A stretch of DNA of 64,000 nt from Liolophura sinensis (taxonomy: Eukaryota; Mollusca; Polyplacophora; Chitonida; Chitonidae). How positions within the stretch are numbered: position 1 is the first letter of the stretch; each line of letters starts with the position of its first letter. The position numbers and the translations under genes were made by a program. This document shows, piece by piece, positions 1-40,337 of the stretch. The DNA lies in the NCBI RefSeq assembly GCF_032854445.1, contig NC_088302.1:35406191-35470190 (forward strand), read 5' to 3'. Below the pieces are notes generated by a model. That model made no database searches. It worked only from the letters and a program-made list of their open reading frames with translations, and was not told the origin of the DNA.

Positions 1-103
1 GCCGGAGAGGAAGCCAGCATGAGCTGGACTTGAACTCACAGCTACCTCATTGGTGAGAGACTCCTGGGTCATTAGATAACCAACTGAGCCACGGAGGTCC
101 CTT
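1..103 (-). mobile_element. tRNA-derived SINE, fragment in reverse orientation
   Basis: This is the reverse complement of the 5' half of the SINE seen intact at 31715-31969. It shows the box B-like and box A-like promoter parts of the tRNA-like head and the start of the body. The rest lies before the window. A short AAAT microsatellite follows at 104-130. Confidence 0.8.
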
Positions 104-313
104 GTAAATAAATAAATAAATAAATAAATGTAACGAGATTTCCCGCAAGACAACTACATTCATTAACCTAAGAAGTCGCATGTGCGAATCTAGCTCTTGC
201 TGGATTCATTTGAAGCTCGGTTTGGGAGACTGATCAAGTTTATGCCGATGTTTTCTTTGTGCACTGCCCGTCTTTCTACACACATGAACCAGTCCATCGA
301 AATACTGATGTGT

Positions 314-350
314 CCAGTGAAATATTTTTGAGTACGGAATAAAACAACAA
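314..350 (+). mobile_element. SINE 3' end fragment
   Basis: A short stretch matches the 3' end of the common SINE (the part reading gtgaaatatt, then gagtacgg, then aaaacaacaa). Only the tail region is recognisable, so it is an old or truncated copy in an intron of CAX copy A. Confidence 0.5.
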
Positions 351-513
351 TGAACGATCGGTCTACGTATAACAATTTGCTACGTATACATGTACATGTC
401 AACATAAGCACCGTCATATATATAATGACAAATACTTGAGGATGGCGATAAGCACCAATCAAGTAATTAAGAAATAACCTGTAATAAATAAACATCGCTG
501 ATTTTCTTTACAG

Positions 514-3500
514 TTTGGAATTAATGGTGACACAAAGCTTTACGACTCACACATCAAACCCCTTGTGTATGCTTGTGCCATCATGCTGCCGATCTCCTAC
601 ATAATAGGACTGGTGTTCACCCTGAAGACACACAAAGAGCTGTTATACGGGAAGGACAGTGGCGAGGAACAGTCAAACGGTAGTAGATTCATTAAACAAA
701 TTTACCTCCTCCGGTACGGTTGTGTTTTTTGTCGGCCTGTATTTGTCTATCTGTCTTTCTGCTACTTTTTCAGAAAAAAGCTATGCATGCAGGAATGAAA
801 TCACTGACTTAGGGCTAGGGACCAATCAGTTAAATTTTGGTTGTTATCCAAATAGGGGTCCGGATCAAAGGTCGTGTTTAAACGATACTTTAAGATTTAC
901 AGATAGGTCCAAAATGCAGAGTATTGTCTATAGTGTGAGGATTTGTACATTTAGCTGTGGAGGCCTCTTGTGCTCTCGGAGTTAAGCATTTGTCATCGTT
1001 TTATAATCTCCGCCAGTGATGCATATGTGACCGGAAACTAGCAAGCACATTGTTGCTCTTTTTTTTTTTGTTTTTTTTGTTTTGTTTTGTTTTTTCCAAA
1101 CTGACTATATGCAAAATTATATCAAAGACGTAATATATTAATTTCTGCGTGACATTCCTGTTGACCCTCTGTTTTTACCAGCTCACCGTGGTCAGGCCCA
1201 GTGGTCCATCCTCAAGTCAGCCGTCATCATGCTAATCGGCGCTGTCCTCATCTCTCTCTGTGCTGATGTGGCTACAGAGAATATACAACCTTTGCTGCAG
1301 GTATCTGGTATATCTGAGGTAAGTTATCACAACAAAATGAAGTAGTCTGGTATCTCTTAGGTGAGTGGTCACAGATTACTTCGGGTGTCTGGTATCTTCA
1401 TCGTAAGTCGTGACAGTATACTAAAGATGTCTGGTATCTCTGAGGTAAGTGATCAGCTTTCGCTGCAGAGTGAGACAGCCAGCCAGGTCAGAGTGCAGAT
1501 CCAGGACACAACCACCGACATTTGTTAGGCACTCAGAGACTTAAGGTCGCAAACGAACCAGAGAAGTTGGATTCGAAAACGCGACCTCATTGACCAGTGG
1601 TCCAATGCTGTATATGAACGGGCTGGCAAGAATCCTACATCATATTGCCTAGCATTCCGCTTAATCCCTGACTTTATTTAGGTTTAACTTCCTAGTTCTG
1701 TGTATATGTATGGATTATCCTACTACTTGGTTAGGCTCTTATAAGCAACAAAAAACTAAGATACGTTTATTAACTGGTATTATAAGATTGTTTATTCATA
1801 ACTCATTTTGTCCTTGCAGTATTTCATCGGGGTAACGCTGCTGGCAATCGTCCCCGATCTACCGGAAGTGGTCAACGGCGTATTGTTCGCTTTACAGAAC
1901 AATGTGGCATTAGGGTATGTCATACTTAACCGAATGCAACTATATTATGTCCATGGACCACCACGGTTAGCACTTATATGATTAAATGATTTAATTGTCT
2001 TTTATCTGCTGGTTAAATCTCTGCTGAGTTCTGTAAATTTGATTACAGTTTACACGCTGTATGTGACTAAAGCTTGGACAGTCCAAATGCAGGTACACTA
2101 AAAAAACTGATCTGTTAGGTTTAACAGAAAGTCTGGTGATTCTAGAATGTACAGCTAAAATTACAACCGACTGATCTGTTAAATGTAACACACATATTCT
2201 GTTCTGTTAGACTAACGAGATATTATGTTGAGTATGACAGAACATTGTGTTATAATAACAGAATATATACATCCTGGCATCGCTCAGGTATAGGCTTTCT
2301 GTTAAAATTAATAGATTAATTCTTGAGTATAACATGTTGATAGAGAACAAACAAAGTTAAATATATACAAACATTTATACGTATATTATGCAAATCCGAA
2401 AAAAATACTACCTCACCATGCCATATTTTGGGGAGTCCAACGACTAGCCTACAAAGAGACACTTTGAAATATCAAGGTCTTGGCGTCAGCATTGAATGGA
2501 TTTATAGTTGACTCAATCACAGAAATCTTACAGTCACAACGAAAATCTTTGATTCAGTAACTATCACATCACATATGTTTGAATGTATTTCATGTCCAAT
2601 TGAATGTACAAATATTCCAATCTATCCCTGTCACCGGTACACACCCAAACTCCTTACCGCGCATGCACCACTCTTTACATTCGCTGATCACTGTCACCAC
2701 AAGCAAATTTTGTCCAGAAAACAACGCCAATGTCAATGGGGTCAGGGTAATAAGGCATGCAGCGATGTCATAAAATGCTAACCCTGTGTCGACATTTGTT
2801 TCCATCTAAACTTGATACACATGCGATTTCTTTATCTAAAAACACGCACAGCATGATTCTGTTAGGCATCTGAAACAATTTTATGGATGGGTGCTGAATA
2901 TAGGTACGCGAGATGACAATAGCGGTAACGCTAAGTCTAAACAAGTCTACGTAATTCGCACAGACTACACAGGCCAAGCTTGTCCAGTGATGGCAGTTAT
3001 GTAAAGCGAGCCTAAGGAGCGGCACATGCGCTGTGAAGAGTATGTGTATGTGTAAGCTCTGTTTCTATCAACCTGTTTTTCTTCCAGGTTAGAGATCGGC
3101 AGTTCAGCGGCTGTCCAGGTTTGCCTGGTGCAGATTCCTACCCTCGTGCTCATTGATCTGATTTATGTAAGTGACACAACCCCGGAGCCTGATACTTTAA
3201 ATACTCTTCTCTGGCCCTCTCGAAACTTAATCTTTGATTTATAATAAGTCTAGAGACACATGCGCAGTGGGTTACCTGTATAGTTAAACGGTAAAACGGT
3301 AACTTACGCAATACGACTTTACTCTTTTAACCTTTCGTATTTGATTGGCGTTCAATAATATTCCTTTCTGGTCTGTGATTTACTTTGTGTTCCAGTCTTT
3401 TAGATTTGACCAGTATTCAATGATATTCATTTCTGGGCTGTGTTCTTTTTTTTATTCGAGCCTTTCGGATTTTACCTGTTATTCAATAATAATCACATAT

Positions 3501-3994
3501 GAGATGTAATTTTTTTTCTATTCCAGCCTTTCGGATTTTACCTGGTATTCAATGATATTCATTTCTGGGCTGTGATTTTTTCTGTCATTGTGATGAACTA
3601 CACGATCCAAGATGGCAAAAGCAACTACTTTCAAGGTAATTAACTTTGTTCAGAGGTTCATACACTTATGAGCTCGAGAGAACCTGCGCTTTCAATTAAA
3701 CTATTTCATTTAAATAATTACATTAAATGATTAATGATTATATCATTACATTTAATGGTTACATTATGCTATTTAATGATTAAATTAATACCCGTTTAAC
3801 CATTGAACTAAAACGCGTTTAATTATCACATTATTACATTTAATGTTGAAATCATTGCAGGATTACGTTTAATGATACTTAAGTGACCCTGCATCTTTTC
3901 ATCTGTTTCAGGCTGGATATTGCTCGGTATTTACTTCGTTATACTGGCTATGTATTTCTTCACACCAGTACCTCCTGATGTCAGATGTTCCTAG
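514..3994 (+). CDS. CAX-family Ca2+(cation)/H+ exchanger, copy A, 3' part (six exons)
   Basis: This is the C-terminal half of a membrane cation/proton exchanger of the CAX family, which in other organisms moves Ca2+ or monovalent cations into acidic compartments in exchange for protons. Exons: 514-679, 1182-1318, 1820-1914, 3088-3166, 3527-3635 and 3912-3994 (stop TAG 3992-3994). All junctions are GT-AG, and phases agree with exons 15-20 of copy B at 35471-40337. Exon 514-679 encodes the LPISYIIGL membrane segment and the FTLKTH turn. Exon 1820-1914 encodes the second alpha-repeat with VPDLPE, whose last Glu is probably a transport residue; copy B has VPELPE. Exon 3088-3166 encodes LEIGSS and AVQVCLVQIP. 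The last exon ends FFTPVPP plus a short tail. The first alpha-repeat must lie before position 1. No frameshift or stop was seen, so the copy looks functional. A possible polyA signal is AATAAA at 4744-4749. Confidence 0.9.
1300..1460 (+). repeat. Degenerate tandem repeats of the exon 16-type donor in CAX copy A
   Basis: Starting at the 3' end of exon 1182-1318, the motif tctggtatctctgag followed by a GTAAGT-like donor occurs about four times, at irregular spacing and with mutations. The homologous boundary in copy B (36393-37640) carries a much longer array of the same motif. In copy A, reading through the true donor soon meets an in-frame TAG. Confidence 0.75.
1522..1601 (-). mobile_element. 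Old SINE fragment of a second family
   Basis: The stretch reading acttaaggtcgcaa through ggattcgaaaacgcgacctcatt resembles, in the same orientation, the element at 53580-53770. It carries a box B-like segment on the minus strand. It is short and diverged, and lies in an intron of CAX copy A. Confidence 0.45.
1915..3087 (+). other. Intron of CAX copy A with no recognised element
   Basis: This intron lies between exons 1820-1914 and 3088-3166. It is AT-rich with no supported gene inside. Short ORFs on both strands near 2575-3150 show no recognisable protein features and overlap each other, so they are not called. Confidence 0.6.
3326..3526 (+). repeat. Tandem copies of the exon 19-type acceptor and exon start, CAX copy A
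   Basis: Three diverged units of about 63-70 bp precede exon 3527-3635, with unit starts near 3326, 3396 and 3459. Each resembles the beginning of the exon (ctttcggattttacctg, then attcaatgatattcat, then ctgggctgtg) and ends in a pyrimidine-rich tract with an AG. The homologous boundary of copy B is repeated in the same way (38832-39089), but with copy B-like sequence. Confidence 0.8.
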
Positions 3995-22952: not shown

Positions 22953-23200
22953 ATTGCTGAAACTTGTCTTTTGGTGGTGCATTTTGTTAAATTTTATCTT
23001 ATTGTATTCTTGGGGTTTGCAGGATGGCTGATTGACATTTGTCTTCAGAATATTGTGTTCTTGATGTTTGGAAAGTTGCTGAACATTATCTGATTGTATA
23101 TTTTGTTATTTCTAAAAAGTCTGAACTTCATCTTATTGCATATTTTGTTGTTTGCAAAATGACTGAATTTTATAGTGTTGTATATTTTGGTGTTTGCAGA
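22953..23200 (+). repeat. Diverged tandem copies of the acceptor and start-codon region of CAX copy B
   Basis: Upstream of the start-codon exon, a 40-50 bp unit (ctgaa, then cttattgtatattttg, then tgtttgcag, then a variant of aatggctgaac) is repeated about four to five times. Unit ends lie near 23024, 23073, 23118, 23158 and the real one at 23201. The copy at 23022 even has an AG followed by gATGGCTGA, but its frame stops immediately. The array ends exactly at the real acceptor. Confidence 0.75.
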
Positions 23201-24434
23201 ATGGCTGAACCTGGAAAGAACCTAACTTCCTCGCTACCGCCGTCTCCTCTGCCCAGCTACATGGCGACCACCAACGAGGAAGTACAGACTGACCCATTAT
23301 CACAGTCGTTCTCAGAAACCGCGGCTGGGAGGAGGAACACCTACAGTAGTGTCAACGGGCCCATTGTCAAGTCTGCTGGAGGTATAGAGCCTACCGATGT
23401 CTTCCACCATTCCTACAAATCACAGACGTCTGTGTCGTCTACCCCAGCAAACATGGACACCTACGTAGTGGTAGGCCGACCAAACAATGAGATAGAGGCA
23501 CACAAGATCGCAAACAATCACTTGGTAAATACAATTTTTTATTTTTTTTTATATTTTTACAGTTACAAAACTCACCATAATTTTGGATGTTAAGTGATCT
23601 TGTTTTACGGCATCTGTTTGTCATGTTGTTCAATCAGCTTGTAAGGTACTAATATCTTTTGGCCCTCTTGCACAAAACTTAAAAATCTATTTTTGATTAT
23701 CTGAAATTCTTTTAAATCTTGTCCCCGTATAGTGCTGTTACGTAGACAACGTCTTGTACACAAAAATTTTTTTTTTCAAAGCGGCTCCATACACAGTGGA
23801 ATCTAACTGTGGTCCAATTCAATGTTTTTGCATATGGGAACTAAAAAGGTCTTGGTCATGCTTATTTTTATTTTCTTCTTGATTCAAAGTTTGGTTTCAA
23901 GAAGTGGAAAAGTCATTTGAGTTCTCGACCTCTGTCTGAGCGCTCAGATGTTGTGAAGGAGCTATATGATGACATCAACAAGATCAAACCTGTCAGAGGT
24001 GAGAAAATAGAACCTTATTTACACCACCAAGTCACAGTTCTAAATTTGGCACCGGTCATGCATGTTGATCGTTATACTTAAAAGGCTAATTTTGTACAGG
24101 TGCTGAGTACTTAGCACATGCACAGGTACATGCTTGTCAGTCCTTTTTGCAGTGACCTGTAGACTTACAGGCAAAGAAAACACCAATATGATGTATATCA
24201 CAGATGAAAGATAAAAACACAGTAATTTGATTTATTTTGTTATTTTCTTCATGTAGTAAAATGCATTTGAATCTTTTCTAAAATATATCAAGCAATAAAT
24301 ATTTATGTGATGCTCTCTGGGTTTACCGACCATTGTAGAATCTTATGCTTTAAAACCATTTTACTTGGTTGGGGAAAATCCTAAAAAAACATATCACATG
24401 ATTTTCCTGCACAGTGATTGATGGTCTTTCATCT

Positions 24435-24473
<39 letters not shown>

Positions 24474-27400
24474 TTTCACACCTTTAAGTAGTTTCTTTGC
24501 CTTCAATTTATAGGGCATAATAACCTTTGTCACCATTTAGTGGGAAGTTTTTGCTTGTGATTGGTCAATTCTGGGTTGTAAAAATGTGCCTTAACCTCAG
24601 TTTATTTATCTGTGATATACTAGTACATTCAGCTTTAGTAATTTAGTAATGAAATATGGGTGAAATACATGGATATAAAATTTCTGTACATTTAAAAATA
24701 CCAACACGAAGTAGAATGTACATGTCAAATGAAAGACCATTAAACACTGTTCAGGAACATAGTTGGATATGTTTTTTAGCTCACCTGTACAAAGTACAGG
24801 CGTAGCAATATATTGTACCCTGACTGTTGGCAATCAATAACAGGGAAAGCAGTATTAAACAAAATGTTAGGGGTGGTTTCTTAAAAAGTACTACAGGTAC
24901 TGACATCAGGGTTTGAACACATGTAGAGCACAATAACACAAGGGGGAAATTTCATTGTTGATTTGGTGTGTACATACTAAATACCATAAAGTACTGAATT
25001 CCTGACTTAATGTATTGTGTATCAAAATCAGTATGAAAGAAAAGTTTATAGGTGGTATCTCAAAAAGTACAGGACTTATTGAGCTCAGGTTTTGTACATG
25101 TGTAGAGCAGAATAACATGAGGGGAGGGTATTCAATCATTGATACTGCATGTGCATATTAAATATGGTAAATTAGCGGCTTCCTGACTCAGTGTATTGTG
25201 TATCAGAATCGAAGTTAAGCAAAATGTGAGGGGTGGTACGTTGTATCTCAAAAAGTAGAGCATGTATTAACCTGAAGTTTTAAATGCGTATAAAGCACAA
25301 TGACACACAAGGAGAATGTCCCATCACTGATGCTCTCTGTGCATATTAATGACTGTAAATGACCAAATTCACGATTTCAGTACTTTTTGTATTGAGCTGA
25401 AGTTTTGCCTTCGTGTGGTTCCTACAGGTGAACCTTTTGCAACTTACATTTACTACCAAATGTAAGTTGGAATTATTTCAACCAGTTAAGATGCTTTTGA
25501 AACATATTGTCACCTATGATATAACACTAATTTTTCACCAATTTTGGAAAAATTCCAAAATATGAATTGAACTGTTTTCCAAGACGTGGTTTGGTGGTCT
25601 TTCATCTGGCATATGTTTTAAGGGTTTAACACTTTCGTCTTGGTGTTTGTTGTGTAACCCAATACTGCTGAACCTTGTTTCATACCTTGTCAAATTCCTG
25701 AAAGGCTGTGCATTCTCGGGATTTGGCTCTGTTACAGCTTACAAATAAATAATAAGTTCTTTGTCTTTATTTCAGTGTCAACAGTGCGACCGAGTAATCT
25801 GCTATATGTTTTATTATTTGGCTGGTGGATATCACTGATCTATCTGTTTGTTGGAGCCTTGTTGATGATCACAATTGTTGGTAGAGTTTATGGTAAGTTA
25901 GCACAGGCTGATGAATATTATTGTGGGAAAGCTTTATGTGGGAAGTTAGCACAGGCTGATGAATATTATTGTGGGAAAGCTTTATGTGGGAAGTTGGCAC
26001 AGGCTGATGAATATTATTGTGGGAAAGCTTATGGTAAGTTAGCACAGGCTGATGAATATTATTGTGGGAAAGCTTTATGTGGGAAGTTAGCACAGGCTGA
26101 TGAATATTATTGTGGGAAAGCTTTATGTGGGAAGTTGGCACAGGCTGATGAATATTATTGTGGGAAAGCTTATGGTAAGTTAGCACAGGCTGATGAATAT
26201 TATTGTGGGAAAGCTTTATGTGGGAAGTTGGCACAAACTATTTTCTGAAGAGGACATGGTAATTAAGTTAGCACAGGTTGATGAAAGTGTAGTGCAAAAA
26301 AATGTACAAGGGCTGAAGATAACACAAATCAATCAGTTCAGTGTTAATAAAGCAAGATTTTGATATAAACTAAGAAGATACACATGTGTAATTGTGGCAA
26401 CAGTGCAGAAATGGTCACTGACCAATGATCACAAACAAATCTGTTTTCAAGACATTTCATGTTTACACTGTCCTTTCTTCTGTAGTAATCTAAAAGTGCT
26501 GATGTATTTTGCAGGTCCATTCTGTTGGAAGATGGCAAAATATTTCATATGGCCCTTTGGAAAGTTTGTTCATCAGGTAAGTTGATTGATTTGATTTATT
26601 TGACTGGTGTTGTACGCCATACTCGAGAATGTTTCACTTATAGGACAGCCAGCAGCATTATTTTGGGTGGAAACTGGGCAGATCCCGAGGGAAACCCACG
26701 ACCACCCACAGAGTTGTGACAAACCTTCCCACGTACGGCCAAAGAGGAAGCCAGCATGAGCTGGACTTGAACTCACATTGACCGCATTGGTGAGAGGCTC
26801 CTGGGTCATTACTCTGCGCTAGCGCGCTAACCAACTGAGCTATGGAGGCCTCTAGGTAAGTTGGATATGAATGTTTATGGTTGCTATTGGTTTTATGGTT
26901 GTGATGTGGTTGGTGATACTGCTTTAATACTTCATACTTTGTTGGAGCAGCACAATACTTGATATTATTTTAATACATCTGCAAACATTGGATATAGATG
27001 TAATTTCCTCAGATTTGGTTTAAGAATTTCTTTCATGTCTGACATGTCTTGAATCTTTAAATTACTTTAAGATTAAATGTACATTTAATAATTTGTATGA
27101 ATAGAAATTGTGAACAAAATCTTTGACTGGGACTTAACATTCTTACCATCAGATCCATCCTGTTCCTTTGGCGTATGTAGCTGAGAAGACGAGTGAAAAC
27201 GGCCTGGTCCCGTCGCCCGAGGGTGGAATTTATGTGGCAGAGACTACAGCTCTTCTGTCCGGCAATGTATCTCTGGAAGTCACAGAGCCAGAAAAACCCA
27301 AGAGATTCAAATGTGACAAGTCATACTGGGTTAGTTCCCCTTACTATACATCTGTAAAATAGATGTATATAATAAACAAAAAAAAAAAAAAAAAAACTAT

Positions 27401-28201
27401 CAATCATTGATGACTTCCTTACTCATCCCGTTCCTTTTCCAACCCTGAAAATAAGCAGAAGGACAAGATCAGTGTCCTGTACCAAAATAGTATGTTGACA
27501 GAATCCAACTGTTTGGTTCAGGGCCAAATTTCCGTGTAAGTAACATTGTAAGTAACTGTTTTAATAATATGAATGGGTGGAAGATTTGCCATTATGTCCT
27601 GTTTCTTGAAGACGGTTGCAGTTTTTATTCTGCTGAATGTCATGACGATTCTCAAGTGAAATTTTTAGGCGACAGCTACTGAAGATTTTAACCAGTAATG
27701 TAATTCATTTTGTCAAAATTTAGCTACCACATTGATGCAGCTGCAAGACTTCATTTTGACAGAATTGCATTACAATACTGATACCACATGACAGGTGAAA
27801 TATCCATGTAAAACTTCATTTAAGAGGATTTTTTCTGTGAATTCTCACCTCGATTTCAGTGTTGTTCCACAGTTAGCTGTATACATGTACATATAGCTGA
27901 TATGAACGCCTTGGTAAAACTAAGATTTAATTCTGAATGTCTTTTCTTCATAGTGTCGTCCCAGAACCATAGTGTGGCTGATCCTGGGCTGTCCACTGTT
28001 GCTGCTGGCTCATGGGATAACCATTTTCATCAGCTGGCTGTTGGTGGTTACCATACCTATTGCTAAGGTATTCAGAACACAAGAGCAACTTTCACAAACC
28101 TTAGGCCACATCCTATGTGTTATAAGACCATAGAGTTAGGAGGCTACACGAAACAATTAAAACAAACTAAGAAGTTTTTGTGAAAGTGGCTGCAGGCATC
28201 T

Positions 28202-28252
<51 letters not shown>

Positions 28253-31200
28253 ATTGGTGTTTTACGCCGTACTCAAGAATATTTCACTTATAAGACGGCA
28301 GCCAGCATTATGGTGGGTGGAAACCCACGACCATCCGCAGACCTTCCCACTTACGGCCGGCATCTTCTTACTTTGTTGTCAAGCATATTAACTTTTATTG
28401 GTGCATCAGAAATTGGCTTCTAATGCGTTTTTGGTTATCCATCTTTACAGTATGGACTAATTGTAACTGTACAGTAGACAGAACTTCAAGTGTTGGCAAA
28501 TCTGGCAAAAGTTTTAACAGTTATGAAACCATTACCGTTTTGCCCTGTTCTTTAAAAAATAAATTTGTGACTACAATGAACACATGTCTGCCTTATTATA
28601 CTCTCTTACAGGTCAATATTAAGACAGTTCAGAAGATCCTATTTCTGCCCCCTGAACAAGTTCAGATTGGGGACTCCGGGGTCATGACAGTGGTAAGGCA
28701 TACCAGTGTGCTAGCTGCTGCCAATGTGTTAGTAATAATATAAATGGTACCAAAATTTCACCCATGACTTAGCTTCACATTTAACCTGATTTTGAGAGTT
28801 TTATTGGCCCTAAATAGAAAGGTATTTTGAGGTTTGTTTGGAACATAGAATGTGACACCTGCTGGAAAACAGTTTCAGCACCAAAATATCTTCTGACGTT
28901 TATTGGCCTCTAAAAAGGCATTTTGGAGGGGATTTTTAAGGTCATTTACCATAAGCCTTTCAACATACAGATTAATTAAGGCTGTGAATCTGGCTTCATT
29001 CAGATATTGCAGGTCTGGAGTAAATTTTATAATTGTAGTTCTGTGAATAGTTGTGAACAAGAATGGCTTTTTCGTTTGTGTTTAGAAACTTGTGTCTTGT
29101 GTCTCATGCAGTAATTCTTCCTTGATTTGATTTCTAGGACTTGAGTGTCCTTCACAGTGAGATCATCATGTACACACACCAGTCTGTGAACATCTACTAC
29201 TACAAGTACACAGTGGATGGCATGAATGTCATTCTTGTCAGTATCCTTGTTGGAGTGGATCGTTATTTTCATGATATTGTATTTATTAGCTCGCCTGTAA
29301 AAAGTATGGGTGGCACCCTGAGTGTCGACGTTATAGTCCAATTATAGAGAAAGCAGTGTTAAAAAAATAGGGGGCTGATGAATAGGGGTGATATCTCAAA
29401 AAGTACTGCAGGTGTTGAGCTCAGGGTTTGCACACATGTAGAGCACAATAACACAACGGGGGATATTCCATCGTTGATTTGTGGATATCAAGTACTGTAA
29501 ATCACTGAATTCCTGACTGTATTGTGTGTGCATGTAAAAATCAATGTTAAAGTGTTAAGGGTGGTTTCTCAAAAAGTACTGCATGTATTGAGCTCAGGGT
29601 TTGCCCACATGTAGAGCACAATAACACAACGGGGATATTCCATCGTTGATTTGTGGATATGAAGTACTGTAAATCACTGAATTCCTGACTATTGTGTGTG
29701 CATGTAAAAATCAATGTTAAACAAAGTGTTAAGGGTGGTTTCTCAAGAAGTACTGCATGTATTGAGCTCAGGGTTCGCACACATGTAGAACACAATAACA
29801 CAACGGGGATATTCCATCGTTGATTTGTGGATATGAAGTACTGTAAATCACTGAATTCCTGACTGTATTGTGGGTGCATGTAAAAATCAATGTTAAACAA
29901 AGTGTTAAAGGTGGTTTCTCAAGAAGTACTGCAGGTATTGAGCTCAGGGTTTGCACACATGTAGAGCACAATAACACAACGGGGATATTCCATCGTTGAT
30001 TTGTGGATATGAAGTACTGTAAATCACTGAATTCCTGACTGTATTGTGTGTGCATGTAAAAATCAATGTTAAAGTGTTAAGGGTGGTTTCTCAAAAAGTA
30101 CTGCATGTATTGAGCTCAGGGTTTGCCCACATGTAGAGCACAATAACACAACGGGGATATTCCATCGTTGATTTGTGGATATGAAGTACTGTAAATCACT
30201 GAATTCCTGACTGTATTGTGTGTGCATGTAAAAATCAATGTTAAACAAAGTGTTAAGGGTGGTTTCTCAAGAAGTACTGCATGTATTGAGCTCAGGGTTC
30301 GCACACATGTAGAGCAGAATCAAAAGGGGGGGATATTCCATCGTTGATTCCGTGTGTACATATTAAATATCGTAAATTGCTGAATTCCTGGCTTAGTGTA
30401 TAGTGTATAAGAATCACTATTGAACAAAATGCTAGGGTTTTGTCTTAAAAAGTATTGTAAATAATGACCTGAAGTTTTACATGCATATACAGCACACAAA
30501 GGGGATGTTCCATCGCTGATGCTCTGTTAATTACCCTAAATAACCAAATTCACAATTTCAGTTCTTTATGCATTGAGCTGAAGTTTTGCATTCTTGAGTC
30601 TCAAACAGAATTTGGGAGCCTTGCCTTGCTATCAATTCTAATTTTTTTTTTTTTTTTTTGATTTCATTTATTCCATGCTCTGCAAGTCCATATACAGAAT
30701 TGTTAACAATTAAGACGTTCAGTGGAGTGCAAAAAAAATTAGCTGTGTGCAAGTATATAAATAACAAGTGTTATCCAGGATAGGATTATACTATAATGTA
30801 ATACTACAGAATGAAATAATATCATATAACAAAACATTATTACGAAAGAAGTCACCTAAAGTAGATTTTCACAGTAGAGGATGCCTTGCATTCTACCAAA
30901 CTGAAGTGAACACAGATGTGTATTGGAAGTGAGCTTTAATATTTGAACAGATTTTTATTCCTGATCAACATTAGTAAGATTTATATTTGGCAGGAGTGTA
31001 CTGAAATCAATATTTAGCAGGACAGTAGGCCATGTTGACTATGTACCATGTTGCAGTATACATTTATTCCAGTTTTCTTTCTCAACACGTTACTTAAATT
31101 TTGCATGAACATGAAGTCAATTTTAAAGAAAATTTTTCTTCACACGCATAATTACACATTTTTGCTATTAAGCATACTTTCTCTTCTTTCATTTGTAAAA

Positions 31201-34200
31201 GTATTTTACAGTTGCTCAAATAATATATTAAGGGCAGAGATACAATGACCTTATATAAATGTACATTGTATGGAGCCATGTTGCTTAAAGGTTTATTTTA
31301 GGATAAATGTTGTGAATCTGTGATGTAAATTTGTTGCCAACTTGTCTTCGCATATGCTGGTTCCTTAATGCCATCAGATTTATTGGTGTTTGTGGTTGTT
31401 GCTCTTATCCTTGGCTACTCTGATCCTGACAATAACTACACCAGTGGCTTTGTGGTAAGTACTACACCTATGAATTCATGTATGGAGCATTCACCTGAAG
31501 CAAAAAAAAAAACAATAAAAAAAGTGTAAGAAAGAGCAAATGTTGGTCAAACTGGTTATTATATTTTGATTTTGTTTAAAACACCAGCTGGTTGGTGTGG
31601 AAGGAATATTGCTTTATTAAACATCAGAATTTAGATTTCGGTTTTTAACTGAAATTTCTATGAGTGGGCAAGTGTCAGTGGAGACTAAAACTATTTTAGT
31701 TTCAATAATAGGAAGGGGCCTCTGTGGCTCAGTCGGTTAGCGCGCTAGCGCGGCGTAATGACCCAGGAGCCTCTCACCAATGCGGTCGCTGTGAGCTCAT
31801 GCTGGCTTCCTCTCCAGCCGTAAGTGGGAAGGTCTGCCAGCAACGTGCAGATGGTCGTGGGTTTCCCCCGGGCTGTGCCCGATTTCCACCCACCATAATG
31901 CTGGCCGCCGTCATATGAGTGAAATATTCTTGAGTACGGCGTAAAACACCAATCAAACAAACAAACAAATCAATAATAGGAAAGAAAAAGATTATTTCAC
32001 AGATTGATCACAATATGGTAGCGTGTGATCTTGAGGTCACCCCAAGACCCCACATGTGATTGTTGTCCTACAAGAACATGTAATTCCAACATTGGAAAAT
32101 GAAGAATTAATTTTAAAGTGAGGTGCCGTTTGCAGCAGCACATCTTATTATCAGTAGTTGTGTACCTGAGTATTGCTGCATACAGTATTGTATTAAGAAA
32201 TAAATGTCCTAACTCTGCCTTCTTACTCCCTCACAGAAATGTATCATGTCCCTGTTGGCTATTGTTCCTCTTACTTACTACATCGGAATGGGCATAGCAT
32301 GGTAAGTCCTCCAGGGAGAACAAATTGTTTAGACTGATTAAGTGTAATCAGGTTTGACAATGTACAAGCATTACTGACAGTTACAGATTTTTGTGTGTTC
32401 TTTAGGCAGATTTTAATAGTTGTCTTCTTTTTCACAAAATATGTGTATTTAATGTAGTTGTAAAGAAAGTGATTTATGTGCATGATGGTTATTTACCTGT
32501 GTGTTTTTACCTGCCCCTCTTAAATGTGGCATTTATATCAGATAAAGAGACTAGGGTGTTTGCCATTTTTGCGCATTGATATGTGTAGCAGAGTGCTTTG
32601 GTTGTTGGTGGGTATTCTTAGCCATATAATTGTTTTTCTTGTGTTTTGGCCATCCGTATAGCAGCTCAGTGTTCTGACCATGGGAGCTATCATGAAAGCC
32701 ACATTTGGCCCATCTGTTCTAACTGACTATTTCTGTTTTGGCCATTAGTATAGCAGCTCAGAGCGTTTTGGCTGTGGGAGCTATCATGAATGCCACATTT
32801 GGATCAGCTGTTGTAACTGACTATTTCTGTTTTGGCCATTAGTATAGCAGCTCAGAGCGTTTTAGCCGTGGGAGCTATCATGAATGCCACATTTGGATCA
32901 GCTGTTGTAACTGACTATTTCTGTTTTGGCCATTAGTATAGCAGCTCAGAGCGTTTTAGCCGTGGGAGCTATCATGAATGCCACATTTGGATCAGCTGTT
33001 GTAACTGACTATTTCTGTTTTAGCCATTAGTATAGTAGCTCAGAGCATTCTGGCCGTGGGAGCTATCATGAATGCCACATTTGGATCAGCTGTTGTAACT
33101 GACTATTTCTGTTTTGGCCATTAGTATAGCAGCTCAGAGCATTCTGGCCGTGGGAGCTATAATGAATGCCACATTTGGATCAGCTGTTGTAACTGACTGT
33201 TTCTGTTTTGGCCATTAGTATAGCAGCTCAGAGTGTTCTGACTGTGGGAGCTATCATGAATGCCACATTTGGATCAGCTGTTGTAACTGACTGTTTCTGT
33301 TTTGGCCATTAGTATAGCAGCTCAGAGCGTTCTGGCCGTGGGAGCTATCATGAATGCCACATTTGGATCAGCTGTGGAGGTGATCCTGTACATCATCTTT
33401 CTTGTGAATGGACTAAAGGCTAAGAACAACTGTTATGTTGAACTAGTGAAGTCAGCCATGGCAGGTAAGCCTGCTTATTTTAATTTGAATGAATCTTATG
33501 GCTTTGGAATTTGATTCTGTACCCTATGTATATCTTTACCTGGATTAAAATTATTGAATCATTTACGAAGAGAAAACCTGTTTTGATTAGCACGGTAGTC
33601 TCTTGTAGAAGCTGTGTTATTGTCAGACATAGGTATCGGTTGTTGCTCTATTTACTTAAATACCATTTATACTTGCAGTGTTTTTGAGTATGATTTTATT
33701 AATTAATAACATATGTATTATTTTTGGAATGGTGATTTATCTGTTGTTTGCTTGTAGGAACATTGCTGGCTACCATGATGTTAATTCCGGTGAGTGACAT
33801 TCAAGGTTCTAAATCTTGTTGCCAGCACTAGATAAAAGAGCGGTGGTAAAACATCCTGCAACAAAGGAGGCACATTACATGCACTCTAATGATTACTTCG
33901 TCGTCCTATGACCGAAAAATTGTTAAGTACGACATTAAACCCCAAGCACTCACTCACTCAGTTGTTGCCAAGAACTAACTACTGTCATATATTTCATCTT
34001 AATATAATATAGCAGATGTGATTTGTGGAAGTTTACATGTACATGTAGTTGTTTAGGCCTCTCAGAGCCGAAAGTCCAGTAGAGTACAGGATGGACATTT
34101 TTGGGAGGTGGGTGTGAACTCTGAACAATCCGTCACTAATCTCTTTATGAGTCAGTATTTCCTTATTTTTTTGAATGAATCAATTGAAAGGTGCCCCATG

Positions 34201-37200
34201 TGTGAGGGGAGTGGTTAATATTACGGCATGAGGTAGCTCCTCTTGTATCTGAGAGCCTGACTTACGGAATTCAAATCCAGCTATTGGCAGTTTGCATGAA
34301 CAAGAATGTGCACTTAACACAGTATGATGGTTGCAGGGCTTAAGCATGGTGGCAGGGGGCCTGAAGTATCGAACACAGAGGTTCAACCCTCAGTCTGCTG
34401 GGGTCAGCGCATCACTGCTCTTTGTCTCTGTAGCAGGTAGGTTGGCTTAAGAAATAAAGTTCTACTCGGGTATAGATATTGGCTGGTATGTAAGCCTTAA
34501 AATTACCTCTCCTTAGCTGTGTCATTGGCATGGTAATCTTGAAAAATTCAAAAATCTGAGTGAAAAGTCCCTCCAGAAAAATTTGTAGTACATCGGTTAA
34601 TGGGTAAAATCATATTTTCAATGTCAACAGTTTGAATTTGAATTCGTTATGTTCAAGCTGCTATAAAATTGCAGTAAAAGATAATGAGATATCATCACTG
34701 ATGTTTACAACAATTACACAGTTGGAATTATTTGTAATGCATTTAACTTTTTTAGATATATGTATGTACTATTGCCATTATTATTAATTTTACTTCTTTT
34801 AAATTGTTTTATATTACCATTTTGTTGATCATTTTTATTTGTCCAGGGATTTTTGCCCCAACAATCTTCTCTAAGGTTTATGGAACTCTTCAGTGTCAGA
34901 AGTGTGAAAACTATACCACAAATAGTACCACAGGCAATGGATCGAATGTCGGGATTCAGTGCTCTGAGTGTGAACAATCTATTGTAAGATCACTTGTTGA
35001 ATTATTCAGCACTCTTTTTATTCATGAATCAAGTTTTTTGTGTGTTTATAAATATGTTTTTGTGTTGACCTATATCAGTGCTTGAAAGAATTATACATTT
35101 ATTCCAAGCAGTGTAGTCTTTGGTTCTTTTCTGTAACACATATACATGTATGTCATTGTCTCTGTATAGTTTTACTTGCAGAGCAAGGAGGTAATTCACA
35201 AACACTGCAGCATAACATCATAAAATGATGTAGTTTTACACAGCTGGGCAATGGCTTGTATTGGTAAGAAATAGTTGTGTGATCTTCAAATTTGTCGACA
35301 AGGACAGCATGTGGCAATTTTGGGGCAAAAAATTAGAGGGATATAGCTTTTAATCTGGTTTAGAACTGCTGAGAATTTGTCATTCTTCAGAAGCAAAACC
35401 GAGAGAAAAATATGGTGAATCTTGTCTTAATTCACATTGCAATTATTCCATGTATGAACCTTGTTTCCAGTTTGGTCTAAATGGGGACAAAACTCTGTAC
35501 GACTCTCACATCAAGCCCCTTGTGTATGCTTGTGCCATCATGCTGCCGATCTCCTACATAATAGGACTGATATTCACCTTGAAGACACACAAGTCTGTTT
35601 TGTACGAGACAACGGATGAAGGGGAACCACAGTCACAGGGTAAGAGCACTGATTAGGAGACTTGTCTGATTATGGATTTGATTTTAACACCCGAAGTTAT
35701 GGAACTGTGTATTTCAGTTTGGGTATGGCTTTTAACACCTATCATATAGATTGCTAACTACTATAATTCTTCAACCTGTTGGAATGTTTGCTTGGAGTTT
35801 ACTTAAGCATGTTTTCAAGCCATTATTCTGTGTAGACTGATAAATTTATACTTTTTGTGAAGCCCAAACTCAAACTGGCCCATCCATCCAGAATCAAATC
35901 AAGAATGTGTATAAATTGCACTGAAAGTTGCTCTTTTACGTGCAGAAATGTTGAGGAATGTCATAAGCATAGACCTTGGTATCAATAAAAATGAATTACG
36001 GTGTTTGACCTAATAATTCACCCCAAAAAATGAATTATTAGAGGCAAATAAAGGTTTATTATTATGTCTAAAGGTAAATATTTCTTCCGGTGCTGAAACT
36101 TACATTTCCCACTGCCATATCATCCTACTTTCCACTCAAACCTCAAAACACCTTTATAACATCAAAATCAGGCAAATTGAGCAAATTGGAGTTGGATGAA
36201 AGGTTATCCCGTCTATTGCATATCATTTAGAAGTAGCTAAATAATTTGTGCATGTTCTTTGACACTGGTGGATTGTTGTAGGTCACCATGCCAAAGCACA
36301 CTGGTCTAAGCTGAAGTCTGCCATCATAATGCTGGCCTGTGCTGTGCTGATCTCCCTCTGTGCAGACCTGGTTACTGAGAATATCCAGCCTCTACTCCAG
36401 GTGTCTGGTATCTCTGAGGTAAGTTATCAACCTCTACTCTACATGGAGGTGTCTGGTATCTCTGAGGTAAGTCACCAGCCTCTACTCCAGGTGTCTGGTA
36501 TCTTTGAGGTAAGTTATCAACCTCTACTCTACATGGAGGTGTCTGGTATCTCTGAGGTAAGTTATCAACCTGTACTCTACATGGAAGTGTCTGGTATCTC
36601 TGAGGTAAGTTATCAAGCTCCAGTCCAGGTGTCTGGTATCTCTAAGTTATCAACCTCTACTCTACATGGAGGTGTCTGGTATCTCTGAGGTAAGTCACCA
36701 GCCTCTACTCCAGGTGTGTGGTATCTCTGAGGTAAGTTATCAACCTCTACTCTACATGGAGGTGTCTGGTATCTCTGAGGTAAGTTATCAACCTCTACTC
36801 TACATGGAGGAGTCGAGTATCTCATAGGTAAGTGATTAGTCCTATCCAGGTGTCTGGTATATCTGAGGTAAGTTATCAACCTCTACTCTACATGGAAGTG
36901 TCTGGTATCTCTGAGGTAAGTTATCAAGCTCCAATCCAGGTGTCTGGTATCTCTGAAGTAAGTTATCAACCTCTACTCTACATGGAGGTGTCTGGTATTT
37001 CTGAGGTAAATGATCAGTCTTATTCAGGTGTCTGGTAGCCCTCAGGTTAGTCATCAGTCTCCACTCCATATGTCTGGTAACTGGTATCTCTAAGGTAAGT
37101 TATCAACCTCTACTCCACATGTAGGTGTCTGGTATCTCTGAGCTAAATGATCAATCCAGATGTCTGATATCTCTCAGTCATCAGTCTCCACTCCAGGTGT

Positions 37201-40200
37201 CTGGTATCTCTTGAGGTAAGTTATCAACCTCTACTCTACATGTAGGTGTCTGGTATCTCTGAGCTAAATGATCAATCCAGATGTCTGATAGCTCTCAGTC
37301 ATCATTCTCCACTCCAGGTGTCTGGTATCTCTGAGGTAAGTTATCAACATCTACTCTACATGGAAGTGTCTGCTATCTCTGAGGTAAGTTATCAAGCTCC
37401 AGTCCAGGTGTCTGGTATCTCTGAGGTAAGTTATCAACCTCTACTCTACATGGAGGTGTCTGGTATCTCTGAGGTAAGTCATCAGCCTCTACTCCAGGTG
37501 TCTGGTATCTCATAAGGTAGGTGGTCAACCTCAACTCCTGGTGTCTGGTATCTATGAAATATTAAGTCATCATCCTCTACTCAAGGTGTCTGGTATCTCT
37601 GAGATGAAGGATCAGCTTCATCTTCAGGTGTTTCGGTCTTTGAGGTACATGTGTTTGGTATGAATCCACTGATTTATGTTACTACAGCTATAAGGTACTT
37701 CTTTCCATAACTGTAAAATTCACTTAAAAGTAGCTTGGAATCACTGCATTGTATTTCGCAAATGACCAGATATTCTGCATTGTGATTTCAGTACTTCATT
37801 GGAGTGACGCTTCTAGCAGTAGTACCAGAGTTACCGGAAGTGGTCAATGGAATACAGTTTGCTTTACAGAACAATGTGGCATTAGGGTATGTAATTCACA
37901 AATAAGGAGTCTTTTGACTGAAGAATTTTTACATTATTTGTTAAGGCAGTATAAATCCATATGAAACATGATTTAACACTTTGTTTTCTTACATGTATGA
38001 TGTATTTTTTTATGAAAATAGGATGGAACATAATTTTCATATTGCGCGTAACATTTTCTTGGGTATACTTTACATAGTCTGGATAAAAAGTAGCATGTGA
38101 GTTATTCCCCTTGATCTTCATGAGTTTAAGGTTATTTTCCCTTGTTACTGTTAGGTTGGAAATCGGCAGTTCAACAGCGGTCCAGGTCTGCTTGGTCCAG
38201 ATTCCACTGATGGTTCTGGTTGATCTTATTTATGTAAGTAATGGAAAACAACAGTGACAAACAGAACAATACCTTATCAGTCCACACAGAACAATGCCTT
38301 ATCAGTCCACACAGGACAATGCCTTTAGAATATGCATAAAATAAACACCCTGCAAACATGTGAAAAGGTTGAGGAATTACAGTAATCAATATTGTGAGCA
38401 TTCATAAAAACAAAATCCAAGATAAAAGGAATTTATCAGATTTTTTCCCAAATTTAAATTATGAATGAAAAAGATGTTTTTTTCTAGAAGATACTATGCT
38501 ACTGTAAACCCTGAAACCTGTTTTGTGAACTTCTATCAGGTTTGCCATGTTTATAGTTTGTGTCTTAAGAAAAACATATTACATATCAGAAATCAATTCA
38601 GCTTAAGGTAAGATATCCAAATTGTGTACACAGTGATTGGGATAAGGTCATCTCTTTTACACATTCACCAGAGTGAAGTAATGACACAAACATTTTATTC
38701 GTCTTGAACTTTATGCTCACAATAAGCAGACAGTCTGGGATTTTTTCTTAACCATTAATTTTTTTTGTCTTCCAACCCTTTAATATATCTTTATCAATGA
38801 TACTAATTTTTGTACTAGGATATTCCTTTTCTTATATTTTCTCTTTCAGCCTTTTGGTTTCTTGCTGTATTTTAGTGTTATCTTTGGTCTGTGATATTTT
38901 CTCTTTCAGCCTTTTGGTTTCTTGCTGAATTTAAATGTTATCTTTGGTCTGTGATATTTTCTCTTTCAACCTTTTGGTTTCTTGCTGAATTTCAGTGTTA
39001 TATTTGGTCTGTGATATTTTCTCTTTCAGCCTTTTGGTTTCTTGCTGAATTTCAGTGTTATCTTTGGTTTGTGGTATTCTCTGTTTCAGCCTTTTGATTT
39101 CTATCTGGTTTTCAATGATATTCATCTATGGGCTGTGATATTTTCTGTGATTGTGATGAATTACACCTTTCAAGATGGCAAGAGCGACTATTTTCAAGGT
39201 AAGCCTCTTTCTTTGAAAACAACATAGCATGTTTTACTATCTACAATCTGTTTTACTGTCTACAGTCTGTTTTACTGTCTACAGTCCTTGCTTTGTGGGT
39301 TGTTAAGAGGAATTGATTCTTTTTATGTTATTCTTAAATGGTTTATAATAAAACTCTGCCTCACTGCAACTACCAGACCCTTGAGGGATGAGGTTGTGTG
39401 TTTGAATTCTGCTCTCACTGTTTTGGCTGCGGCTTTAAGTCAGGAGGATCGCCCAGCAAAAGTCGGTTCCTGACCACGGTCATGATAGCGAAAACTTCTT
39501 GAGCAAGGCATGAAACACCAATGGCTCAGACAATCAGATTTTCATCATCGTAGGTCTCTGTATACCTTGTGTTGTACTTTTACAGTAGAACAGTGTAGGT
39601 TGGCTGCATACATCACCCTGATGTGCTCGTGTAAAATATTTCATTGTCATCTTCATTTCTTCTAAACTACATTTGTGTGAAATACATCGGTGGTAATGAA
39701 AAGCAGATAATACGCAGTGAAGGGTGAATATCATAACTCTTCTTCGTGTGAGAGGTGAAAATGATATCCCAAAAGATGCGAAGCGTCAAGTGGATTATCA
39801 TTCGCATCTTTCACAAGAATATTCATGAGATATTTCACTTTCACTGTGCAATATTCTATTTAATATTTACATGTTGACAATGTTGTGATTTCTTGTATTG
39901 GAACAGGTTTAAAATGTTGTTTCTAGCTGTAGGCCTTCATGGACATGTGTATATACATATAGCGTTACGTGGAACGTAATGTCTTCTGTAAGAAAACGTT
40001 AAATTTGTTTGAAGTGCAAGAAATGTTAAAATTGGCTGAAGTTGTATTATGATGTCATTGTACTGAGCTCATATTGGAACGTCATAAAACAACATGGTTC
40101 TTTTTTCACTTCATGATGCCGGTGTGTGCAGTAACAAAAGTGATATCTAACTCTAGCCAGTGAGATATCACTTATCAGTGATAGAAGTCCCGACATTTCA

Positions 40201-40337
40201 TCTTTGTATAAATAATAAATGCTCCTGTTTTACCTTTTGCAGGTTGGATACTGGTTGGTATTTACCTGGTGATACTGGCCATGTATTTCTTCACTCCTGT
40301 ACCACCAGAAGCCAGGTGCTCTGCTACCCCAGACTAG
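23201..40337 (+). CDS. CAX-family Ca2+(cation)/H+ exchanger, copy B, complete (20 coding exons, 777 aa)
   Basis: A membrane exchanger of the CAX family, expected to move Ca2+ or another cation into acidic organelles against protons. Exons: 23201-23524, 23890-23998, 25776-25892, 26515-26576, 27153-27329, 27954-28067, 28612-28692, 29138-29240, 31378-31454, 32237-32301, 33313-33464, 33758-33789, 34337-34436, 34847-34983, 35471-35639, 36282-36418, 37792-37886, 38155-38233, 39090-39198, 40243-40337. All are GT-AG, phases agree, and the total is 778 codons with TAG. Residues 1-150 are a polar cytosolic N-terminus, and exon 3 holds the first membrane helix. Exon 11 carries the first alpha-repeat (NATFGSAVE, Glu near residue 432). 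Exons 13-14 carry the GLKYRTQRFN, AGVSASLLF and FAPTIFSK signature. Exon 17 carries the second repeat (VPELPEVVNG, Glu near 668), and exon 18 LEIGSS. The long N-terminus recalls fungal Vnx1-type members; ion specificity cannot be read from sequence. The start ATG is one base after an acceptor, with G at +4. Five of its exon boundaries are tandemly repeated. Confidence 0.93.
24438..24472 (+). repeat. (TA)n microsatellite in intron 2
   Basis: A pure TA dinucleotide run in the intron between exons 23890-23998 and 25776-25892. Confidence 0.95.
24770..25400 (+). repeat. About three diverged copies of the ~175 bp intronic repeat family, intron 2
   Basis: It starts with tagctcacctgtacaaagta and a short lead, then has units with aaaaagtactacagg, cagggtttgaacacatgtag, agcacaataacacaag, gttgatttgg and gaattcctgact. 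The intron 8 array (29290-30440) has the same lead (agctcgcctgtaaaaagtat) followed by the same unit, so both introns received one element type, and that in intron 8 expanded more. Confidence 0.8.
25886..26240 (+). repeat. Higher-order tandem repeat starting at the exon 3 donor
   Basis: The array begins in the last codons of exon 3 (tttatg|GTAAGT). Three subunits of 45, 48 and 48 bp form a 141 bp higher-order unit, repeated about 2.5 times. Subunits share agcacaggctgatgaatatt and attgtgggaaagc. The first subunit of each 141 bp unit keeps a perfect donor (GT at 25893, 26034, 26175); in the other two it is altered (tatgtgggaag). The exon frame stays open across the whole array, to about 26248. 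Confidence 0.95.
26585..26853 (-). mobile_element. Common SINE, full-length, inserted at the exon 4 donor
   Basis: A full-length reverse-oriented copy from tail (gatttatttgactggtgtt) to head (ctaaccaactgagc, then atggaggcctct). It is flanked by the 10 bp direct repeat aggtaagttg at 26575-26584 and 26854-26863. This target-site duplication spans the exon 4 splice donor (exon end 26576, GT 26577-26578), so a second donor-like copy now lies on the far side of the SINE. Confidence 0.93.
28206..28358 (-). mobile_element. Common SINE, 5'-truncated with internal deletion, intron 6
   Basis: A reverse-oriented copy with a very long poly-T (its poly-A tail) at about 28206-28251, then gattggtgttttacgccg through accttcccacttacggcc. 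It is flanked by the 11 bp duplication ggcatcttctt at 28195-28205 and 28359-28369. It lacks the block with gggcagagcccg present in other copies; the join is between short ggaaac repeats. Confidence 0.93.
29290..30440 (+). repeat. ~175 bp tandem array, intron 8
   Basis: After a lead at 29290-29370, about six units of roughly 170-180 bp follow, with landmarks tctcaaaaagtactgcatg, attgagctcagggtt, cacatgtagagcacaataac, ggatattccatcgttgattt and gaattcctgact. The middle units are nearly identical; the last is diverged and continues loosely to about 30590. The minus-strand ORFs here are repeats of this unit and not genes. Confidence 0.93.
30600..31377 (+). other. Rest of intron 8, nothing recognised
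   Basis: AT-rich intron sequence with a poly-T run at about 30641-30659 and no recognised element before the acceptor at 31376-31377. Confidence 0.55.
31715..31969 (+). mobile_element. Common SINE, reference intact copy, intron 9
   Basis: A near-complete plus copy. The tRNA-like head has box A (tggctcagtcgg) and the palindromic gcgcgctagcgcg; the body follows, and the 3' end gagtacggcgtaaaacaccaa is followed by a caaa-rich tail. It is flanked by the 13 bp target-site duplication tcaataataggaa at 31702-31714 and 31970-31982. In this copy the box B region is shortened (gtgagctcatgctgg) compared with copies reading gagttcaagtcc. Confidence 0.95.
32650..33312 (+). repeat. 94 bp tandem copies of the exon 11 acceptor and exon start
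   Basis: Seven copies precede the real exon 11 (starts 32657, 32749, 32843, 32937, 33031, 33125, 33219; real exon 33313). Each has ttggccattag, then tatagcagctcagagc, then gccacatttggatcagctgt, matching the first ~63 bases of the exon. The copies diverge from the exon just where it reads GTGGAG, so all lack the codon for the transport Glu. Read in the exon frame, each copy ends in TAG. The first copy is the most mutated. Confidence 0.95.
33313..33464 (+). other. CAX copy B exon 11: first alpha-repeat
   Basis: This exon encodes CIAAQSVLAVGAIMNATFGS followed by AVEVILYIIF. The NATFGSAVE motif is the first conserved CAX alpha-repeat; its Glu (near residue 432) is expected to bind the transported cation in the membrane centre. 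It is preceded by seven decayed copies of its own 5' half. Confidence 0.9.
33880..33961 (+). mobile_element. SINE 3' end of another family
   Basis: The stretch gattacttcgtcgtccta, then attgttaagtacgacattaa, then accccaagcactcactcact looks like the 3' end of a SINE with a CACT-repeat tail. Only the end is recognisable. Confidence 0.5.
36393..37640 (+). repeat. Large tandem array of the exon 16 donor
   Basis: It starts inside exon 16 at ctactccaggtgtctgg and repeats [gtgtctggtatctctgag + GTAAGT + tatcaacctctactctacatgga or a shorter linker] about twenty times over 1.2 kb, degenerating toward the 3' end. The first downstream donors, at 36467, 36509, 36557 and 36605, are 48, 90, 138 and 186 bp after the real donor at 36419, all multiples of three. 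The exon frame stays open to about 36688, encoding repeats such as VSGISEVSYQPLLYME. Confidence 0.95.
37792..37886 (+). other. CAX copy B exon 17: second alpha-repeat
   Basis: This exon encodes YFIGVTLLAVVPELPEVVNG followed by IQFALQNNVALG. It is the second conserved CAX alpha-repeat, with the partner Glu near residue 668. Copy A has the same exon at 1820-1914 with VPDLPE, a conservative change one helix turn from the key Glu. Confidence 0.9.
38234..38831 (+). other. Intron 18, nothing recognised before the acceptor array
   Basis: AT-rich intron between exon 18 and the acceptor array. A short direct repeat (gaacaatgccttatcagtcc) occurs near 38261-38320. No other element was recognised. Confidence 0.5.
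38832..39089 (+). repeat. 60 bp tandem copies of the exon 19 acceptor and exon start
   Basis: Four units of exactly 60 bp (exon-like starts 38850, 38910, 38970, 39030) precede the real exon at 39090. Each reads tgatattttctctttcag, then ccttttggtttcttgctg, then gttatctttggtctg. The third has lost its AG (ttcaac). Read in the exon frame each copy ends in TGA after 14 codons. Part of the unit's acceptor tract resembles the exon's own later sequence (gctgtgatattttctgtg). Confidence 0.93.
39360..39525 (+). mobile_element. Old tRNA-derived SINE-like element, intron 19
   Basis: A box B-like gtgtgtttgaattct is followed by ggctgcggctttaagtcagg and a 3' part (cttcttgagcaaggcatgaa, then acaccaat) resembling SINE tails. 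It is similar to 6860-7010. Confidence 0.5.

Follow-up and report, generated by a model that had tools for sequence, protein, structure and literature searches.

Mirage minisatellites at splice junctions of two paralogous CAX genes in a chiton

Results

The CAX locus and its surroundings

The window, by which we mean the whole 64,000-nt stretch of Liolophura sinensis DNA analysed here, contains one complete CAX gene, CAX B, and the 3′ part of a second, CAX A, which spans -11155 to 3994 in window numbering (Table 1). About three-quarters of CAX A lies upstream of the window, with exons 1-14 in stretches L010/L011. The introns of CAX B are all GT-AG and its spliced gene model gives a single frame, with Pfam matches to Na_Ca_ex (PF01699, 4e-21) and YccF (PF03733, 1.2e-16); the spliced frame of CAX A is 747 aa. 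The two proteins are identical at 545 of 744 residues, and 138 of 251 fourfold sites differ (JC about 0.99). A and B share the positions of all 19 introns, the end of exon 4 being displaced by 6 nt, which upholds the statement in the first-pass annotation that the introns existed before the repeats described below. A search for a third CAX paralogue with the C-terminal 171 aa found none, all ten matches falling in A and B. A genome search with PF01699 (21 matches) listed neither A nor B and is thus no test for such a paralogue, and the PF01699 relatives on stretches L031-L033 did not match CAX B convincingly by tblastn.

The rest of the window carries several other features. A minus-strand gene with a Pfam match to Exo_endo_phos is presumably nocturnin-like. 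A 17-nt sequence occurs twice without mismatch, at 61217 and 61198 (19 nt apart), across one of its donors (61180-61220, minus strand; exon ending at about 61213), a duplication that is too short for the 36-mer test used here and is not counted. A 30-bp repeat in one of its coding exons (52469-52661, 6.4 copies) encodes, in frame, a 10-residue repeat with many E, K and R residues, and two large minisatellites 5 kb apart (53792-55399 and 60023-61105) apparently share one of its introns; their 41-46 bp unit is by eye largely common to both and is not obviously derived from an exon end. A single open frame of 787 residues (48668-51031) has a MACPF domain, and we take it to be perforin-2/MPEG1-like. 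Within intron 8 of CAX B, a 176-bp repeat (29386-30349) is by eye akin to a 179-bp array in stretch L026, and, in contrast to the junction arrays, probably belongs to a dispersed satellite.

Table 1. CAX genes and their junction arrays, in window numbering (negative positions lie outside the window, upstream; scores out of 36 are matches of the junction 36-mer)
Feature	Position	Strand	Boundary, unit or basis	Score	TRF row
CAX A 3′ part, exons 15-20	1..3994	+	tblastn, exon tables
Exon 3 donor array, CAX A	about -9793 to -8400		units 47 and 31 bp	28/36
Exon 11 acceptor array, CAX A	-3231 to -3006		89 bp x 2.6	32/36
Exon 16 donor array, CAX A	1304..1455	+	exon end 1318; 42-bp unit x 3.6	29/36
Exon 19 acceptor array, CAX A	3351..3581	+	exon start 3527; 66-bp unit x 3.5	33/36
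CAX B	23200..40337	+	20 coding exons, 777 aa, spliced ORF
Start-codon exon acceptor array, CAX B (weak)	23051..23210	+	42-bp unit, ~3-4 copies		23079-23210 (42 bp x 3.1)
Exon 3 donor array, CAX B	25874..26235	+	exon end 25892; unit 45-48 bp	24/36	25891-26235 (48 bp x 7.3)
Exon 11 acceptor array, CAX B	32642..33375	+	exon start 33313; 94-bp unit	35/36	32642-33375 (94 bp x 7.8)
Exon 16 donor array, CAX B	36389..37603	+	exon end 36418; 42/48-bp units	36/36	36389-37603 (42/48-bp units, several overlapping rows)
Exon 19 acceptor array, CAX B	38834..39146	+	exon start 39090; 60-bp unit	29/36	38834-39146 (60 bp x 5.2)

Five junction arrays in CAX B

TRF arrays and the gene model agree with the original observation that tandem units cross the splice junction at five boundaries of CAX B. 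The ends of exons 3, 11, 16 and 19 lie inside or at the edge of TRF arrays. The array at the acceptor of the start-codon exon is short and degenerate, reaching 29/36 in a local recurrence search; it is present at 23079-23210, but it is weak, and the units that had been proposed from 22953 onwards match with 15-16 mismatches of 38 and are not counted.

Contrary to what had first been stated, the splice site is missing from some of the units. Unit scans, whose mismatch limit means that unit counts include some chance matches, found AG in three of six units at the start-codon exon, ATGGTAAGTT in three and TGTGGGAAGTT in five of the eight units at the exon 3 donor, the acceptor AG in seven of eight at exon 11 and CAG in four of five at exon 19. 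The exon 16 array has 23 to 27 units in two such scans, and GGTAAGT occurs 17 times in its region (36389-37640); its unit contains both CAGGT and GAGGT. By inspection, the unit consensuses of different CAX junctions are mutually unrelated and each resembles its own exon end. The exon 11 unit, the sole unit searched genome-wide, gave eight matches, all inside its own array, in keeping with the earlier view that this is not one spreading repeat. As to whether the edge of an array escapes homogenisation, a trait of mirages, the two CAX B acceptors disagree by eye: the true copy of exon 19 is unlike the remaining units, which is not so for the true copy of exon 11.

The same four junctions are arrayed in CAX A

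In the junction test, a 36-mer of 24 exon and 12 intron bases was searched in its own intron, for 76 boundaries (38 in A and 38 in B; the start-exon acceptor was left out). In 1852 control searches, made in non-cognate introns, the maximum was 23/36. Eight of the 76 junctions beat all of the controls, and they are the same four in each gene: the exon 3 donor, the exon 11 acceptor, the exon 16 donor and the exon 19 acceptor. The lowest of the B scores, 24/36 at the exon 3 donor, is barely above the control maximum. The chance that two independent sets of 4/38 coincide is 1.35e-5. The first-pass annotation had seen only two of these boundaries repeated in copy A; the 36-mer test, and arrays that lie upstream of the window, bring the number to four. 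Nothing matching the start-exon array of B was seen in CAX A.

The arrays of the two genes are also alike in period. At exon 3, this is 47 bp in A (140 for three; a larger block has a 31-bp unit) and 45-48 bp in B (141 for three), and the values for A and B respectively are 88-89 and 94 bp at exon 11, 42 and 42/48 bp at exon 16, and 65-66 and 60 bp at exon 19. The break point of the exon 11 array lies 63 nt inside the exon in both genes, and the array break points agree by eye. Only introns 3, 10 and 16 of the 19 align between A and B (blastn, E 1e-3), and every one of them is arrayed; intron 18 also carries an array, at its distal end, but gives no blastn alignment at this threshold. Between A and B, the intron bases flanking arrayed junctions show no significantly greater similarity than those at other junctions (Mann-Whitney p 0.12).

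According to the sections of PMC11068029 that describe it, the assembly (GCA_032854445.1, Liolophura japonica) was built from 14X PacBio HiFi and Omni-C data with a mean read of 8,347 bp. Assembly error is an unlikely source of the arrays, given that they are 1.2 kb long at most.

Junction arrays in other genes

Junction arrays are not confined to CAX. Nineteen stretches of 10 kb were taken at round positions, and so were not randomly drawn, and 11 exons were picked by eye from their 77 coding candidates, leaving out repeat-like ones and those of stretch L024 (C5; its several long frames have the look of a large mobile or virus-like element). A Pfam scan of 10 segments gave a match for nine of the 11 tested exons; the other two, L026 2821-3004 and L013 7032-7206, were outside the scan. 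One of the 11 was positive, a tyrosine kinase exon in L017 with a degenerate acceptor array.

Twenty further kinase exons were then listed by hand before retrieval, and the first 15 were tested. The rule for listing was an open frame of up to 125 aa with at most one stop, one exon per cluster, with L017 excluded; the list departs from it in that the L036 exon has two stops and that one later exon on C7 was overlooked. A clear donor array was found at the tyrosine kinase exon L034 600-1003 (reverse complement), where six copies of the exon end and donor, 63-67 bp apart, reach 36/36. The acceptor of the L039 kinase exon is borderline at 30/36: the sequence tested is T-rich and was removed by the low-complexity filter, and the exon part repeats vaguely. 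The remaining 13 of the 15 kinase exons have no junction array. For the other genes in total, the 52 exon ends tested include two clear cases and a borderline one; some of the 52 are gene ends (e.g. in L041 and L044).

Genomic background and choice of null

TRF with a period of at least 25 returned 48 rows, for 47 distinct arrays, in 190 kb. The donor motif occurs in one of the 48 consensuses and the acceptor motif in one, in what is a blunt test. By coverage, junctions recur no more than random 36-mers of the genome. Of 5667 such random 36-mers (the same low-complexity filter had removed 33 of 5700), 10.4% have a further match of at least 26/36 within 350 bp on one side, and none of 1140 has one in a shuffled-flank control; the CAX junctions give 7/76 on the same measure (8 at 24/36). 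The sliding procedure applied to the 52 ends gives 15.8% of 760 for the background, 8/76 for CAX and 2/52 for the other ends.

An event-based null, in which the chance of a founder unit straddling a given junction is about 0.72%, does yield an excess in CAX, of about 15-fold. Here CAX B has 5/39 junctions arrayed (P 9e-6), or 4/38 if A and B are counted once (P 1.6e-4), with the caveat that CAX was picked for its striking pattern. In a separate calculation, the straddling of a junction by at least five of the seven CAX B arrays has P 1.3e-4. For the other genes, the event-based null gives P 0.054 for 2/52 and P 0.006 for 3/52 with the borderline case included.

Over the whole genome (609,464,459 bases in 632 contigs), triple AGGTAAGT arrays with 38-68 bp spacing give 808 overlapping matches, as against 643 for the backwards motif, a 1.26-fold difference. 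Merged by hand, those in the first 40.5 Mb of C1 form 14 distinct arrays against 12 for the backwards control, and single octamers in the sampled sequence outside the window number 8 against 6. Because there is so little excess of the motif over its backwards control, there is no need to invoke a process directed to splice sites across the genome, at least where arrays retain a strong donor, although this depends on the null.

Discussion

The CAX arrays are a known phenomenon, that of mirages, found here in a chiton. Mirages are tandem repeats across exon-intron boundaries, named in amphioxus Adh3 and also present in the amphioxus globins BflGb6 and BflGb9, in TnC and in PGBD5; the passages on them in PMC3087553 and PMC3902484 report that they are unstable in length, that at Adh3 they are somatically unstable as well and that splicing is not disturbed, and describe mirages in lancelets only. 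Like the mirages of these passages, the CAX arrays have tandem units that span a donor or acceptor, many but not all of which hold AG/GT signals, and an authentic exon copy at one end, which in CAX is intact and keeps the frame in both genes. The CAX units, at 31-94 bp, are within the mirage range of 10-160 bp given in PMC3087553. Among the results listed by a literature search of open PMC papers there was no mirage report in a mollusc, and the relevant passages on earthworm metallothionein (PMC12783039) and gastropod hemocyanin (PMC7931591) contain no junction-spanning minisatellite. CAX differs from the amphioxus cases in its mollusc host, in the five junctions arrayed in one gene, in the four that are common to an old paralogue, and in being known from the sequence of one assembly alone.

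In a related process, AGGT-containing exon segments are duplicated in tandem and a new intron is gained, as Hellsten is said to have described in 2011. The same route is attributed to Rogers 1989 in a passage of PMC3087553, and a potato RdRp gene is presented as a case of it in PMC4974935. It resembles CAX in that exon segments with proto-splice sites are duplicated in tandem. However, CAX has no new intron, A and B having 19 matching introns, and its junctions are older.

We consider it likely that the CAX junction arrays are mirage minisatellites that have a common origin in A and B and are anchored by the exon copy. Each array would have been founded by a local tandem duplication of a 40-95 bp segment straddling the splice junction, mostly exon with 12-30 intron bases, and would since have gained and lost units through slippage or unequal exchange. 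Coding would be confined to the copy contiguous with the remainder of the exon, the others being intronic and spliced out, as the intact frame and the amphioxus reports suggest. Arrays of this kind may occur because the genome is rich in minisatellites and because a duplication straddling a junction can be spliced away, unlike most of those inside an exon. The presence of arrays at the same four junctions, with similar unit lengths and matching break points, suggests that four of the five were probably born before the CAX A/B gene duplication and kept in both copies. Conservation of the exon part would also make arrays born independently in A and B look alike, so that it is the few unit lengths and the break points that argue for a common origin. 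Gene conversion between A and B could in principle have made the arrays alike as well. The most likely reason for their maintenance would be anchoring: with protein and splice site both under selection, the exon-side copy would stay fixed, and the array may stay recognisable because this selected copy supplies a fresh template.

Other origins can be weighed against this one. The first-pass annotation proposed, as one of two options, a local mutational process originating at the ends of exons, with repeated seeding of arrays, and R-loops, or replication trouble linked to the polypyrimidine tract or to U1, could direct such a process to junctions. The excess in CAX B under the event-based null, the marginal excess in the other genes and the P of 1.3e-4 for the straddling arrays are what would be expected of it, but there is no excess by coverage and the motif counts (808 against 643, and 14 against 12 on the C1 part) leave it unsupported. 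Recurrent seeding also predicts private arrays; four arrays are common to A and B, and the start-exon array of B is the one that fits. On balance, a directed process seems doubtful, though some preference for junctions may be real. The annotation's other proposal, selection that keeps redundant splice sites, can be widened to include decoy sites that regulate splicing, and would explain why the same four junctions have been retained in A and B over about one substitution per fourfold site. Selection for redundancy predicts that the splice bases should be the best-kept part of the unit. The splice dinucleotides are above the unit mean in five of nine arrays and below it in four, which gives no consistent trend, some of the scanned units being chance matches; the exon 3 array of A, the largest in that gene, has GTAAGT in three and GTAACT in 14 of its 37 scanned units, and the donor is present in three of the eight in B. 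The first unit at exon 16 can be read through in frame, but unit lengths of 94, 89 and 31 bp disrupt the reading frame, and we regard selection of this kind as improbable.

Two further explanations have very little to recommend them. Introner elements are repeated sequences carrying splice sites, the same element being dispersed over many loci. They share with the CAX arrays a repeated sequence that bears splice sites, but the CAX unit differs at each junction and that of exon 11, the only one searched, is not dispersed. The position of the arrays is the one point in favour of introner-like or transposon-derived repeats inserting at junctions; since each unit matches its own exon end, and the exon 11 segment has all eight of its matches in its own array, such an origin is very improbable. 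It is equally hard to credit that the arrays were created by an assembly artefact, even if copy numbers could be somewhat off at 14X coverage and after haplotype purging, given that the mean read (8.3 kb) is longer than the arrays, that distinct variants occur among units and that two diverged genes carry arrays at corresponding junctions.

If the CAX arrays are indeed anchored mirages of common origin, those shared by A and B suggest that such repeats can last very long. With mirages present in a chiton, both in unrelated genes and at four shared junctions of old paralogues, it becomes possible to measure how old they are and how they turn over; they also provide a natural setting for testing whether splice sites and introns can arise by tandem duplication. 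A more tentative suggestion, which may well prove wrong, is that splice junctions are long-term refuges for minisatellites, where anchored arrays last for roughly the neutral saturation time and those in other parts of introns are lost. If this were general, a few percent of exon ends would be arrayed in minisatellite-rich genomes, and these would form a lasting reservoir for alternative splice sites, for the sliding of introns and for the birth of new ones.
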